Source: Futiania mangrovi
GTDB lineage: Bacteria > Pseudomonadota > Alphaproteobacteria > Futianiales > Futianiaceae
DNA: 64,000 nt
Direction of reading: 5' to 3'
Assembly (NCBI RefSeq): GCF_024158125.1
Contig: NZ_JAMZFT010000001.1
Coordinates: forward strand, 1,302,001-1,366,000
Part shown: in pieces, positions 7,097 through 11,689 of the stretch
How positions within the stretch are numbered: position 1 is the stretch's first letter
How the letters are laid out: every line of letters begins with the position of its first letter
Notes under the pieces: model-generated
Database searches by the model: none
Seen by the model: the letters and a program-made list of their open reading frames with translations, nothing else
Told to the model about the DNA's origin: nothing
Translations under genes and position numbers: made by a program

Positions 7097-7591
7097 TCAG
7101 CCGAGACGCTTCTCGAAACGTAGTGCATCCATGCCGTCCTCGTAATAGGCGGCCCGCAGGCCGAGCGGCCGGAACCCCCGCCGCCGGTACCAGTCGGCGG
7201 CGACGGCGTTGTCGGCACGCACCTCCAGCCGCATCCGCACACACCCGCGGCCCACCGCGTCTGCCTCGGCCGCCGCAAGAAGCGCGTCGCCGTGCCCGAG
7301 GCCCCGCACCGCGGCGGCGGTAGCGATGGAGTAGAGCCGGGCGACACCGGTCCCCTGTCGGTAGAAGACGATGGCCGCCGCGCCGAGCCCGCCGGGCCCC
7401 GCCCCGGGTGTGACGAGAACGCGCACGCTGGGACTGGCGATGGCGCGCGCGAGCGCCCTGCGGCTCATAAGGTCGCCGGGGAAGCTCGCCTGCTCCAGCG
7501 CGCACAAGTCATCGAGGTCCGCGCGGGTTGCCGCGCGGACCGCGATTGTCCGTCCGCTGGCCTCAGATGTCGGCGTAGCAGGAACTCTCAC
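7097..7591 (-). CDS. GNAT-family N-acetyltransferase partnered with the ATP-grasp ligase
   Basis: Single GNAT domain of 164 residues. The acetyl-CoA binding loop is [15 protein letters not shown] (about 92-106), the pyrophosphate-binding R/Q-x-x-G-x-G/A variant, followed by the beta-4/beta-5 region [23 protein letters not shown] start at 7591 lies inside the end of ilvD (29-base overlap); no ATG or GTG is found between the ilvD stop and the domain, so the overlap is probably real. In related operons the acetyltransferase is often fused to a C39-type peptidase domain; that domain is absent here. Expected to work with the downstream ligase; substrate unknown. Confidence 0.82.
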
Positions 7592-9296
7592 CCTTCGCGC
7601 CCGGCTGGGTCACCGCGCCGTTGCGCGCGCTGCCCACCGTCTGCGCATACTTCCAGATCACGCCGGACGTGATCTCCGGCGTGCGCGGGGCCCAGTCCTT
7701 CGCCCGCGCCGCCAGTTCCTCGTCCGACAGTTCGACGTCGAGGCGCCCGTTCTCCGCGTCAATGACGATGATGTCGCCGTCGCGCAGCAGGCCGATCGGT
7801 CCGCCGACCGCGGCTTCGGGGCCGACGTGGCCGATGCAGAAGCCGCGCGTCGCGCCCGAGAAGCGCCCGTCCGTGATCAGCGCCACCTTGTCGCCCATGC
7901 CCTGGCCGTAGAGCGCCGCCGTGGTCGCCAGCATCTCGCGCATGCCGGGGCCGCCCTTGGGGCCCTCGTAGCGGATGACGAGCACCTCGCCCTCCTTGTA
8001 CTCCTTGCGCTCCACCGCGGCGAAGGCGTCCTCCTCACAGTCGAAGCAACGGGCGGGGCCGCGGAACTTCAGGTTGGACATGCCCGCGACCTTCACGATG
8101 GCGCCGTCGGGGGCGAGGTTGCCCTTCAGACCCGTCACGCCGCCCGTGGGGGACAGCGGATCCTTCGGCGGATAGAAGACCTTGCGGTCGGCCACCGCCT
8201 TCACATCCTTCAGGTTCTCCTCGACCGTCTTGCCGGTGACGGTCATGCAGTCGCCGTGGATGTGGCCCGCCTCCATCAGGAGCTTGAGCAGGATCGGCAT
8301 GCCGCCAGCTTCGTACATGTCCTTGGCGACATATTTGCCGCCGGGCTTGAGGTCGGTCATGTAGGGCGTGCGCTTGAAGACCTCCGCCACGTCGAACAGG
8401 TCGAAGTCGATGCCGCACTCGTTCGCGATGGCGGGCAGGTGCAGCGCCGCATTGGTCGAGCCGCCGGTGGCCGCGACGACGACGGCCGCGTTCTCCAGCG
8501 CCTTGCGCGTCACGATCTCGCGCGGGCGCAGATTGTCGGCGATGAGGCGCATGACCGCGCGGCCAGACGCCTCGGCATACTGGTCCCGGTCCTCGTAGGG
8601 AGCGGGCGCCGCGGACGAGAGCGGCAGGGCGAGGCCCAGCGCCTCCGACACGCAGGCCATGGTGTTCGCCGTGAACTGGCCGCCGCATGCGCCTGCCGAC
8701 GGGCACGCCACGCATTCCAGCGCGTGCAGGTCTTCGTCGGACATGTTGCCGGCCGAATGCTGGCCCACCGCCTCAAACACGTCCTGGACGGTCACGTCGC
8801 GGTCCTGGAAGCGGCCCGGCAGGATCGAGCCGCCGTAGAGGAACACGCTCGGCACGTTGAGGCGCACCATCGCCATCATCATGCCCGGCAGCGACTTGTC
8901 GCAGCCAGCGAGGCCGACGAGCGCATCGTAGCAATGCCCGCGCATGGTGAGTTCGACCGAATCCGCGATCACCTCGCGGCTGACCAGCGAGGACTTCATG
9001 CCCTGGTGGCCCATGGCGATGCCGTCGGTGACGGTGATCGTGCAGAACTCCCGCGGCGTTCCCTGCGCCGCCCAGACGCCGCGCTTGGCCGCCTGCGCCT
9101 GGCGCATGAGCGCGATGTTGCAGGGCGCGGCCTCGTTCCAGCAGGACGCGACGCCGACGAGAGGCTGGTGGATCTGCTCCTCCGTCAGGCCCATCGCGTA
9201 ATAATATGACCGGTGCGGCGCGCGCTCCGGCCCCTCGGTCACATGGCGGCTGGGCAGTTTCGACTTGTCGAAGGGCTTGGCGTCCATCCTGGGCAT
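7563..9296 (-). CDS. ilvD: Dihydroxy-acid dehydratase
   Basis: Fe-S dehydratase of branched-chain amino acid synthesis, converting 2,3-dihydroxy-isovalerate and -methylvalerate to the 2-keto acids. 577 residues, full length. Family signatures include [12 protein letters not shown] (cluster cysteine), [18 protein letters not shown], and the C-terminal [19 protein letters not shown]. The N-terminus [18 protein letters not shown] fits well; a second ATG lies three codons in. It reads away from the PEP-CTERM gene across a 384-base gap. The GNAT and ATP-grasp genes follow on the same strand and start inside it, so they probably share its transcript. Confidence 0.97.
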
Positions 9297-9423
9297 TTCC
9301 TCACTGGCAGGCGGGTTCGTTTCGGCGCGGGAGTTTAGGCGGGAAGCCCCCCTCGCGACAACAGGCGAGCGTGCGCGCCCGCGCCGGAAGAGGAATGCAC
9401 AAAGGGACGGTGCGTGCCGCGTG

Positions 9424-9474
9424 ATTCGCGCTTAGGGAGATTTTCTTATACTGGTATTCGACCTAAACGCGAAT
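9424..9474. promoter_or_regulatory. 13-bp inverted repeat, candidate operator or upstream activating site
   Basis: ATTCGCGCTTAGG at 9424-9436 is matched by CCTAAACGCGAAT at 9462-9474, 12 of 13 positions complementary, with a 25-base spacer. It lies between ilvD and the sigma-54 promoter, outside the predicted PEP-CTERM transcript. Either gene could be its target. Confidence 0.5.
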
Positions 9475-9512
9475 GTATTTACAACCCACGGCTCGCCTCG
9501 TGTAAAAACATT
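9472..9512. promoter_or_regulatory. 12-bp inverted repeat with TGTAAA core, candidate enhancer site
   Basis: AATGTATTTACA at 9472-9483 faces TGTAAAAACATT at 9501-9512 with 11 of 12 complementary positions and a 17-base spacer. Its centre is about 120 bases upstream of the sigma-54 promoter, a usual distance for a bacterial enhancer-binding protein. A TTTACA sequence also flanks the dyad at 10450-10489 upstream of the second sigma-54 promoter. Confidence 0.5.
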
Positions 9513-9601
9513 GAGACAGGATTCCCCCAAAACATTCCTGTTTTTGCCAGCAACAGAGCGATCCATTCATTTAGATTACTGACTCTCTTGGGACTTTTTT
9601 T

Positions 9602-9618
9602 TGGCACGCTTCCTGCTT
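9602..9618 (+). promoter_or_regulatory. Sigma-54 (RpoN) -24/-12 promoter of the PEP-CTERM gene
   Basis: TGGCACG-N4-CTGCT with GG at 9603-9604 and GC at 9615-9616, the invariant GG-N10-GC spacing. Transcription would begin near 9628, giving a leader of about 50 bases to the ATG at 9681. PEP-CTERM genes in other bacteria are known to be driven by RpoN with the PrsK/PrsR two-component system. Confidence 0.85.
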
Positions 9619-9680
9619 CGATGTCGGACACCAACCTAGCCGTACGTATGAGTTCGGCGCATGGGAGAAGGAAGCAGATT

Positions 9681-10334
9681 ATGAAGAAGCTGATTACCTC
9701 GACCGCCTTTGCCGCCGCTATGGTGGTTGGCGTCGCAGGCACGGCGTCTGCGGGCATTATTGTCCACGACACCGAGGCCGAGTTCACGATCACGAACAAC
9801 CAGGCTGGGGGCGTTGCCGCCAACCGCTCGATCCTCGGCAACATGTTCGACAACGACACGACGACCATGTTCTCGCTGGGCCTCGGAGGGAACATCGCGC
9901 TTGAGATCGTCCCCTCCACCAACGCCATCACGGACGGCACGGTGGTCGAATTGACGAACCTCGGCTCGAACCACGCTGAATCGGCAATTCTGTCGCTGTT
10001 CGACGTGGGCACCGCGACGTGGATCGACATCGCCGAACTGTTCAACAACGCGGCCCCCGGCGGAACCCAGGCGGTCGACGCCGGCTCCGGCGTTGCGACG
10101 GTGGTCGGTGTCGTTGCCGGCGCCACGTCTAACTTCACGCTGACGGTGCTGAGCGGCACCTTCAATGCGATGCGGCTGACCGACACGTCGTCCAACATCG
10201 TGGGTACCGGGTCCACGGACGGTTTCGACATCGCCGAGCTTTCGGTGACCTCTGTGCCCGAGCCGGGCATGCTCGGCCTGATGGGCGTCGGCCTGCTGGG
10301 CCTGGGCTTTGCGGCGGCGCGCCGCCGGGCCTGA
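9681..10334 (+). CDS. PEP-CTERM sorting domain protein
   Basis: Secreted protein of 217 residues. A Sec signal peptide (MKKLITSTAFAAAMVVGVAG, cleavage after TASA at about 24) is followed by a beta-rich region without a named domain. At the C-terminus stands the tripartite PEP-CTERM signal: VPEPG at about 191, a hydrophobic helix (LGLMGVGLLGLGFAAA) and the terminal RRRA. Such proteins are anchored and cleaved by exosortase and usually belong to exopolysaccharide or floc matrices; no exosortase gene lies in this window. The ATG at 9681 is chosen over upstream starts because it gives the signal peptide and has GGAGAAGGAAG before it. Preceded by a sigma-54 promoter and followed by a strong terminator, so it is monocistronic. 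Confidence 0.92.
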   Translation: MKKLITSTAFAAAMVVGVAGTASAGIIVHDTEAEFTITNNQAGGVAANRSILGNMFDNDTTTMFSLGLGGNIALEIVPSTNAITDGTVVELTNLGSNHAESAILSLFDVGTATWIDIAELFNNAAPGGTQAVDAGSGVATVVGVVAGATSNFTLTVLSGTFNAMRLTDTSSNIVGTGSTDGFDIAELSVTSVPEPGMLGLMGVGLLGLGFAAARRRA

Positions 10335-10379
10335 TCCGCTCGTTACCGGCTTCGACAGCCGGAAAGCATGGCAGAATGG

Positions 10380-10412
10380 AACGCCTCTCCGCCCCCCGCG
10401 GAGGGGCGTTTC
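10380..10412 (+). terminator. Rho-independent terminator of the PEP-CTERM gene
   Basis: A 13-bp stem (AACGCCTCTCCGC with GCGGAGGGGCGTT, one U-G pair) closing a short C loop and followed by TTTC. It starts 45 bases after the stop codon. The terminator at 10740 has nearly the same outer stem. Confidence 0.85.
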
Positions 10413-10449
10413 TGCTGAACAAGCACACGTCCCGCAAAAAAACGTAAAG

Positions 10450-10489
10450 AAAGGTTAACACCAGAAAACGACGATTTCTGTTAACCTTT
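10450..10489. promoter_or_regulatory. Perfect 11-bp inverted repeat upstream of the second sigma-54 promoter
   Basis: AAAGGTTAACA (10450-10460) and TGTTAACCTTT (10479-10489) are exactly complementary with an 18-base spacer; flanking GTAAAG and TTTACA extend the symmetry imperfectly. The centre is about 90 bases upstream of the -12 element, fitting an enhancer-binding protein site. Confidence 0.6.
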
Positions 10490-10543
10490 ACAAACCCCTC
10501 AATTCAAACACCGCAAATAACTGAATTTACGTCATTTCTGTCT

Positions 10544-10560
10544 TGGCACGCATCCTGCTA
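10544..10560 (+). promoter_or_regulatory. Second sigma-54 -24/-12 promoter
   Basis: TGGCACG-N4-CTGCT, with GG at 10545-10546 and GC at 10557-10558 and exact N10 spacing. It differs from the PEP-CTERM promoter at a single base inside this block. Predicted start near 10570. No protein gene follows before the terminator at 10740. Confidence 0.8.
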
Positions 10561-10569
10561 TTAACTAAT

Positions 10570-10770
10570 TAACCACGACGCACCTCTCGAGCCGGGTCCT
10601 CCAGCCGGGCAGGGAGGGGGCGGGTCCGGCACGAGTATAGCCGGGCATCCGGCCAGCGGCGCGGTTCGCGGGCGCAGGTCCCGATCCCGTGCGGATCTGC
10701 GGCGCTTCAGTTTGCGTTTACATGTCTTCCAACCAGTGGAACGCCTCCCGGCCCGGGCCGGGGGGCGTTT
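10570..10770 (+). ncRNA. Candidate sigma-54-dependent short RNA (or relic of a PEP-CTERM gene)
   Basis: A transcript from the sigma-54 promoter to the terminator would be about 200 bases. Within it no start codon with a ribosome-binding site opens a frame that ends before the terminator, and no signal peptide or PEP motif is seen in any frame. The two possibilities are a regulated small RNA or the remains of a deleted PEP-CTERM gene whose promoter and terminator survive. Confidence 0.4.
10740..10770 (+). terminator. Rho-independent terminator, similar to the PEP-CTERM one
   Basis: AACGCCTCCCGGC pairs with GCCGGGGGGCGTT (one U-G pair) around a short loop, followed by TTTC. Its outer stem and the preceding GTGGAACGCC resemble the terminator at 10380 (ATGGAACGCC), suggesting a shared origin. 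It lies just beyond the stop of the convergent LysR gene. Confidence 0.75.
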
Positions 10771-10783
10771 CACGTTTGCGGCA

Positions 10784-11689
10784 TCACCCGCGCTCCCAGG
10801 GCGGGCGGGGTGTGAACTTCTCAACGATGAAATCCACGAAGGCGCGGGTTCGGGCCGAAAGGTGGCGCGCGGAAGGATAGACCGCATAGATCGCCACACC
10901 GGGGTTGACCCGGTAGTCGGGCAGAAGGCGCACGAGGGCACCCGAGCGCAGGTCGCGGTCGACGTCCCAGCTCGACTTCATGGCGATGCCGAGGCCCGAC
11001 AGCGCCGCGTCCCGTACCACGTCGCCATTGTTGGTCGTGAACCGGCCTGCGACCTTCACGATCTCCTGCCCCTGCGGCCCCTCGAAGCGCCAGTGATCCT
11101 GGCCATGCAGGACGATGCAGTCGAAGTCGGCCAGGTCACGCGGGGTTTCCGGAACGCCGTGCTTCTCGACATACTCGGGCGCGGCGACGATCTCGCGCTT
11201 GTTGTCGGCGAGCTTGCGGGCGACGAGGGTCGAATCCTTCAACTCCGCGATCCTGAGGGCAACGTCTATCCCCTCCCCCACGATGTCGGAGAGCGAATCC
11301 GTCAACATCGCGTCGAGCTGCACGCGGGGATGGCGTTTAAGGAACTCCGGCAGGAGCGGCGAGATGTGCAGCCGCCCGAAGCCCGCCGGCATCGTCACCT
11401 TCAGAAGCCCGTGCGGATCGGCCGAGGATTGCGTGGCGGCCGCTTCGGCCTCCTGCACGTCGGTGACGATCCTGACCGCACGCTCGTAGAAGGCATGCCC
11501 CTCGTCCGTCGGGCTCACCCTCCGCGTCGTACGGTTGAGGAGGCGCACGCCCAGCGTCTCCTCCAGCCGCGCGAGGCGCTTCGACACGCTGGCCGGGCTG
11601 AACCCCAGCTCGCGTCCTGCATCCGACAGACTGCCGCGTTCCACAACTCGCGTAAAAAGAACAAGGTCGGAGATATGCTCAACCGGCAT
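10784..11689 (-). CDS. LysR-family transcriptional regulator
   Basis: 301 residues, standard LysR layout. The N-terminal winged helix-turn-helix (about 3-62) includes FTRVVERGSLSDAGRELGFS and ASVSKRLARLEETLGVRLL. A linker helix and the periplasmic-binding-protein-like effector domain (about 92-295) follow. The sequence is close to the CrgA/DsdC-like subgroup often annotated as LysR substrate-binding regulators of aromatic or stress genes. The divergent neighbour is only the small protein at 11821, so the target is unclear; LysR regulators often control the adjacent divergent gene. Confidence 0.93.
   Translation of the reverse strand: MPVEHISDLVLFTRVVERGSLSDAGRELGFSPASVSKRLARLEETLGVRLLNRTTRRVSPTDEGHAFYERAVRIVTDVQEAEAAATQSSADPHGLLKVTMPAGFGRLHISPLLPEFLKRHPRVQLDAMLTDSLSDIVGEGIDVALRIAELKDSTLVARKLADNKREIVAAPEYVEKHGVPETPRDLADFDCIVLHGQDHWRFEGPQGQEIVKVAGRFTTNNGDVVRDAALSGLGIAMKSSWDVDRDLRSGALVRLLPDYRVNPGVAIYAVYPSARHLSARTRAFVDFIVEKFTPRPPWERG

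Follow-up and report, generated by a model that had tools for sequence, protein, structure and literature searches.

The window analysed here, a 64,000-nt (64-kb) stretch of the Futiania mangrovi genome, contains a gene for a 217-aa PEP-CTERM protein (positions 9681–10334, plus strand; PF07589, 30.8 bits; TIGR02595, 20.8 bits against a cut-off of 16). The genome holds 13 PF07589 matches, 12 of them above the curated cut-off. The gene is divergent from ilvD, encoding dihydroxy-acid dehydratase (7563–9296, minus strand; TIGR00110, 690.6 bits against a cut-off of 618). A σ54-type -24/-12 promoter, TTGGCACGCTTCCTGCT, lies at 9601–9617 on the plus strand, where an earlier sequence-only reading of this DNA had placed it, 63 nt before the ATG codon at 9681. 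It is one of six genome matches to a strict pattern and carries the -24 (GG) and -12 (GC) elements of the promoter class of Haft et al. (2006); transcription is predicted to start near 9628. Upstream of it, in the intergenic region common to both genes, lie three dyads, assigned to neither strand, at the positions reported in that reading. Recomputing arms and pairing gave a 13-bp dyad (9424–9474; arms 9424–9436 and 9462–9474, 12/13 paired, 25 nt between them) and a 12-bp dyad (9472–9512; arms 9472–9483 and 9501–9512, 11/12 paired, 17 nt between them) that have bases 9472–9474 in common, and a 6-bp dyad (9516–9541; ACAGGA at 9516–9521, TCCTGT at 9536–9541) was read directly from the sequence.

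A second -24/-12 σ54-type promoter, TTGGCACGCATCCTGCT, was recognized at 10543–10559 on the plus strand from the sequence read and a strict pattern match. It is preceded by a PrsR-type box, CGTAAAGAAAGGTTAACA (10443–10460, score 12.9), one of three strict 18-bp matches in the genome, and by TGTTAACCTTTACA (10479–10492, score 15.6), composed of half-sites with a 2-bp spacer, neither of them assigned a strand. The TTTACA/TGTAAA core previously noticed here is indeed present, as TTTACA at 10487–10492 and CGTAAAG at 10443–10449, and an 11-bp dyad (10450–10460 with 10479–10489; P 0.003) lies within the half-sites. No evident gene follows this promoter, the plus-strand open reading frames of at least 20 aa over 10545–10785 starting only at 10689 and 10712. 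A strongly folding stretch (z -2.9) after the promoter terminates with a GC-rich hairpin ahead of a convergent LysR-like gene, and positions 10543–10775, which gave no Rfam match, could represent a σ54-dependent small RNA or a leader whose gene has been lost.

The genome encodes XrtA (exosortase A), PrsK, PrsR and PrsT in a cluster, each above its curated cut-off, and PrsR reaches 662 bits against the NCBIfam cut-off of 502.6, which agrees with the earlier guess that PrsR is the regulator. The C-terminal helix-turn-helix of this PrsR (AAKLLGVSRPTIYNLI) closely resembles those of 15 PrsR proteins whose genomes carry canonical boxes, in an alignment from which L144 is missing and in which L155 lacks the C-terminus. 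In L155 (genome G299, which has canonical boxes) the PrsR match spans family positions 1–352 only and an in-frame TAG is present. The F. mangrovi genome has seven PF00158 matches, three weak (23–26 bits) and four strong (177–246 bits), the latter being PrsR, NtrC, NtrX and an AtoC/ZraR-like protein at C1:70980 that falls below every listed cut-off; for this protein and NtrC, part of the protein was scanned. A 17-bp PrsR-type box (L049, 7932–7948; G000:C1:1203931–1203947) is situated just upstream of prsK or in an over-long prsK start, with no plus-strand σ54 element after it, and autoregulation is possible.

Haft et al. (2006, PMC1569441) describe motif 1 as a 17-nt element that ends in TTTACA and lies 62.8 nt (SD 10.6, range 32–92) before the σ54 motif 2. 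Exploration of the 385 genomes of the class, probably Alphaproteobacteria, for TTTACA followed by a -24/-12 element at 45–75 nt yielded 46 matches, the window's own second promoter included, in 32 genomes, compared with 3 for the reversed pattern, and the box-to-promoter spacing was 61–64 nt in 17 of the 30 TTTACA-anchored loci read. At the 29 such loci outside this genome, a TGTCRG-like half was present at a 5-bp spacer in 14, at 6 bp in 2 and at other spacers in 3, and was lacking in 10. Anchoring on GTCRG in 22 genomes, picked largely for their TTTACA-anchored hits, gave 61 matches in 17 genomes versus 14 for the control; 30 of these sites were read, 23 had a fitting spacing, and 22 of the 23 carried a YTTACA-like half. 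The canonical PrsR box ("motif 1") deduced from these sites is therefore TGTCRG-N5-YTTACA, mostly 61–64 nt before TGGCA. One place was read twice via the overlapping loci L121 and L135.

A symmetric half-site matrix was then built from 26 boxes of other genomes, dropping the sites that lacked the other half (6/20 TTTACA-anchored and 1/23 GTCRG-anchored); it replaced an earlier matrix from TTTACA-anchored sites alone, whose hits were ambiguous. PrsR was found at E <= 1e-150 in 17 of the 22 genomes whose PEP-CTERM-type promoters supplied the half-sites. The five genomes picked for box-like hits that gave no PrsR at this threshold are G066, G136, G209, G011 and G223; G209 has several good boxes, so its regulator may be missing from the assembly or have diverged. 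An IHF-like site between the activator box and the promoter is a feature of classic σ54 promoters. In the other genomes, 15 of 23 box–promoter spacers score 8 or 9 of 9 for such a site (about 10% expected), and an IHF-like YAANNNNTTGAWW occurs on the plus strand 17–19 nt before TGGCA in 8 of these 15, or 8 of all 23 (loci L079–L108). At the PEP-CTERM promoter at 9601–9617 the IHF-like score is just 7 of 9, at another place.

To this genome the matrix was applied as a scan of 13 promoters of 230 nt each (the second promoter of the window and those of 12 of the 13 PEP-CTERM genes), with spacers of 0–11 bp, counting sites that scored at least 8 and comparing them with 1000 shuffles; a separate run with another shuffle gave identical observed counts. 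The -24/-12 elements were picked by hand, that of L036 after a possible box had been seen, and three rows were dropped: a PEP-CTERM gene with neither a convincing -24/-12 element nor a box (L043), a -24/-12 match for which the gene lacks a PF07589 hit (L045) and a DNA match only (L038). Spacer 6 gave 8 sites where 0.39 were expected (the largest count in 1000 shuffles being 3), spacer 5 gave 4 (0.37 expected, P 0.001), spacer 4 gave 2 (0.37 expected, P 0.044), and spacer 2 gave 4 (0.34 expected, P 0.001), an enrichment that a simple dimer model leaves unaccounted for. Spacers 9–11 had one site each and spacers 0, 1, 3, 7 and 8 none across the 13 promoters, and reversed sequences had 0 or 1 site per spacer. 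A site at spacer 5 or 6 was present in 9 of the 13 promoters, and 4 had none over the cut-off. The sequence-only reading had staked its proposal on a motif shared by the PEP-CTERM genes of this genome, and a shared upstream motif, a dimeric site, does occur at 9 of the 13 promoters examined.

Outside promoters the matrix alone is unspecific, because the whole window holds 18 sites with a 5- or 6-bp spacer, of which just two belong to its two promoters. The strict pattern YGTHAR-N6-YTDACR, composed after the sites had been seen, was found three times in 3.39 Mb, each time at a promoter of the set, against 2 for the reversed control; what is informative is the absence of a fourth place. The 17-bp form occurs at 6 places, as does its control: a single PEP-CTERM promoter accounts for two, prsK has one immediately upstream, and three lie elsewhere, one of the three having a weak σ54-like match at 127 nt and the other two none within 260 nt. 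At L166 (G000:C1:604075–604091), a box-like palindrome of 17 bp overlaps the region where a 504-aa open reading frame begins; judged by its first residues, the product looks like a polysaccharide flippase. A genome-wide search for the perfect palindrome TGTAAA-N5-TTTACA with up to two mismatches showed no enrichment (4 places versus 8 for the reversed form). Expectation maximization (EM) on the 13 promoters returned TGTAAAGGCGCCTTTACA as a palindromic 18-mer (log-likelihood 36.9, against 31.9 for the best of 12 shuffled sets); EM alone decides nothing, because the palindromic 17-mer, an AT-rich pattern, showed a similar excess (36.7 versus 30.3) and two non-palindromic runs were T-rich too. 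The ratio of 6-bp to 5-bp spacers is 8:4 here and 2:14 in the other genomes (Fisher p 0.005), with a matrix derived from 5-bp-spacer boxes. These counts suggest that the PrsR box of this genome is mostly an 18-bp palindrome, TGTNAR-N6-YTNACA, exceeding the published 17-nt motif 1 by 1 bp.

The positions of the sites were also analysed for helical phasing. For a helical repeat of 10.5 bp, the centres of the 12 sites have a common phase (Rayleigh p 0.0015; 0.003 without L036), with p 0.021 for one site per promoter (n=10) and p 0.052 when the five promoters of least certain -24/-12 are left out (n=7). Relative to the phase of the canonical box (median of 20 other-genome boxes, 69.5 nt) no significant agreement was found (V 0.20, p 0.16). 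Pairs of sites about two turns apart, both scoring at least 8, occur at three promoters (L041, L046, L040), and pairs with weaker members at two more (L036, L047). We tentatively propose, at rather less than even confidence, that in this lineage the PrsR box has a spacer of 6 rather than 5 bp and sits at several helical steps from the promoter instead of at one fixed distance, at some promoters in pairs about two turns apart, and that this system would also drive a non-coding transcript of about 200 nt from the promoter at 10543–10559.

At the PEP-CTERM promoter of the window, the best candidate PrsR box is TGTAAAAACATTGAGACA (9501–9518, not assigned to a strand), TGTAAA and GAGACA with a 6-bp spacer, which scores 8.1 with the other-genome half-site matrix. 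It consists of the right arm of the 12-bp dyad and the adjoining GAGACA (9513–9518), and its centre lies 91 nt before the promoter 17-mer, the same distance as for the box of the second promoter. The same TGTAAA (9501–9506) read with a 4-bp spacer (9501–9516) scores 12.2, above the 8.1 of the 6-bp form. TGTAAAAACATTGAGACA is the weakest site over the cut-off: an equal score arises anywhere in 8.2% of shuffles, in 1.4% when the site must fall no more than 0.2 turn from the canonical phase, and in 12.1% if spacers of 4–6 bp are allowed. Taken together, the 13 promoters are enriched in the variant box, which reaches P 0.08–0.12 at this promoter alone. The 17-bp matrix found nothing convincing at the promoter at 9601–9617, with a best score of 4.3 compared with 12.4–25.7 for the training sites, and therefore this promoter lacks motif 1 by the published definition. 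The lone plus-strand TTTACA lies 117 nt from the promoter 17-mer, beyond the range of 32–92 nt given by Haft et al., and the left TTTACA of the 12-bp dyad has no good partner half.

Two dyads of this quality are modestly unusual and exceed chance (P 0.003–0.014). Compared with 1000 dinucleotide shuffles, the best dyad had P 0.024 and a second-best as good P 0.003 in 9400–9600, and P 0.038 and P 0.014, respectively, in the whole intergenic region (9297–9600); the true surprise is smaller than these values, because the stretch was chosen for its striking look. Because both genes share this intergenic stretch and the 13-bp dyad lies at the greater distance from the PEP-CTERM promoter, the dyads, and the 13-bp one in particular, might be operators for ilvD unrelated to the PEP-CTERM gene. 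We consider this improbable, though the best placed of the alternatives: no promoter-like site for ilvD was found within 9300–10800, the RNA of 9297–9520 folds no better than shuffles (z -1.0), and an Rfam search gave no match at E <= 0.5.

Slightly less probable still is the proposal of the sequence-only reading itself, in which the two long dyads are the operators of PrsR or another activator. Their excess over chance, the TTTACA in the second dyad, which is the published 3' end of motif 1, and the long dyad at the second promoter as well all speak for it. However, the arms do not recur at any other PEP-CTERM promoter of the genome, where the best match is 9/13 or 9/12 bases, and PrsR-type boxes elsewhere span 17 bp with 6-bp half-sites, not arms of 12–13 bp set 17–25 nt apart. 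Rhodospirillaceae bacterium SYSU D60014 (L056), which carries the closest homologue found (51% identity), shows a canonical box 61 nt ahead of that homologue's promoter; the upstream region there resembles that of the F. mangrovi gene no better than shuffles do. L056 does contain AATCTATTTACA, an 11/12 match to one dyad arm, as part of a distal box-like palindrome. The 57 relatives searched, all from other families, gave DNA matches of 20–38 nt. The site that does fit takes just the right arm of the 12-bp dyad plus adjoining bases, and is itself weak. The 12-bp dyad is best understood as the by-product of a pair of inverted TTTACA half-sites, of which only the right one belongs to a plausible box, and the 13-bp dyad would be something else, perhaps for ilvD, or chance. 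The eye-catching dyads are real but not the likeliest operator of the PEP-CTERM promoter.

That the 17/18-bp sites belong to another σ54 activator, such as the AtoC/ZraR-like protein, is the least credible alternative. The four strong σ54 activator domains of the genome speak for it. Against it, the PEP-CTERM-type promoters that supplied the half-sites come from other genomes, most of which encode PrsR, and prsK has a 17-bp box immediately upstream, albeit with no plus-strand σ54 element following.

We consider it reasonably probable, and the best explanation, that this DNA serves as the upstream activating region for a σ54-dependent PEP-CTERM promoter of the PrsK/PrsR regulon, with PrsR acting at about 9501–9518; control via this site rather than via the dyads is likely. 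PrsK would phosphorylate PrsR, and the phosphorylated protein would bind as a dimer at about 9501–9518, some 118 bp before the predicted start. DNA looping from the bound PrsR would then trigger open-complex formation by the RpoN-polymerase at 9601–9617.

Some PEP-CTERM genes are involved in floc formation, and in the papers found, the basis for control of PEP-CTERM genes by PrsR consists of the motif prediction of 2006, one survey of binding in vitro and work with RpoN mutants. The PrsR-type boxes with a shifted spacer at most of the PEP-CTERM promoters examined offer a small, testable set of sites that ungapped motif searches may miss; if the 6-bp-spacer reading is true, most of the regulon would escape an ungapped 17-nt model.

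According to Haft et al. (2006, PMC1569441), motifs 1 and 2 occur together at 99 of 167 proteobacterial PEP-CTERM genes, and PrsR is proposed as the cognate activator of motif 1. The region described here resembles theirs in having a σ54 element before a PEP-CTERM gene with TTTACA-type half-sites upstream, in a genome that combines PrsK, PrsR, PrsT and an exosortase; it differs in having no acceptable 17-nt motif 1, the best site having a spacer of 6 or 4 bp and lying farther from the promoter. The PEP-CTERM gene pepA of Aquincola tertiaricarbonis likewise has a TGGCAC/CTGCTT -24/-12 promoter and a predicted enhancer upstream; according to that study (PMC9850573) it needs RpoN1, and its start site and RpoN dependence were measured, whereas here both are predicted. 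DVUA0057 of Desulfovibrio vulgaris is also a response regulator predicted to control PEP-CTERM genes, its five predicted targets of this kind being enriched in an in-vitro binding assay, and binding here is predicted from sequence; that survey (PMC3333781) states that no site motif was validated for this group of regulators. The literature searched, which takes in few subscription journals, yielded no description of the 18-bp box form. The kind of system is known, and the 18-bp form looks like a variant of the known PrsR box.
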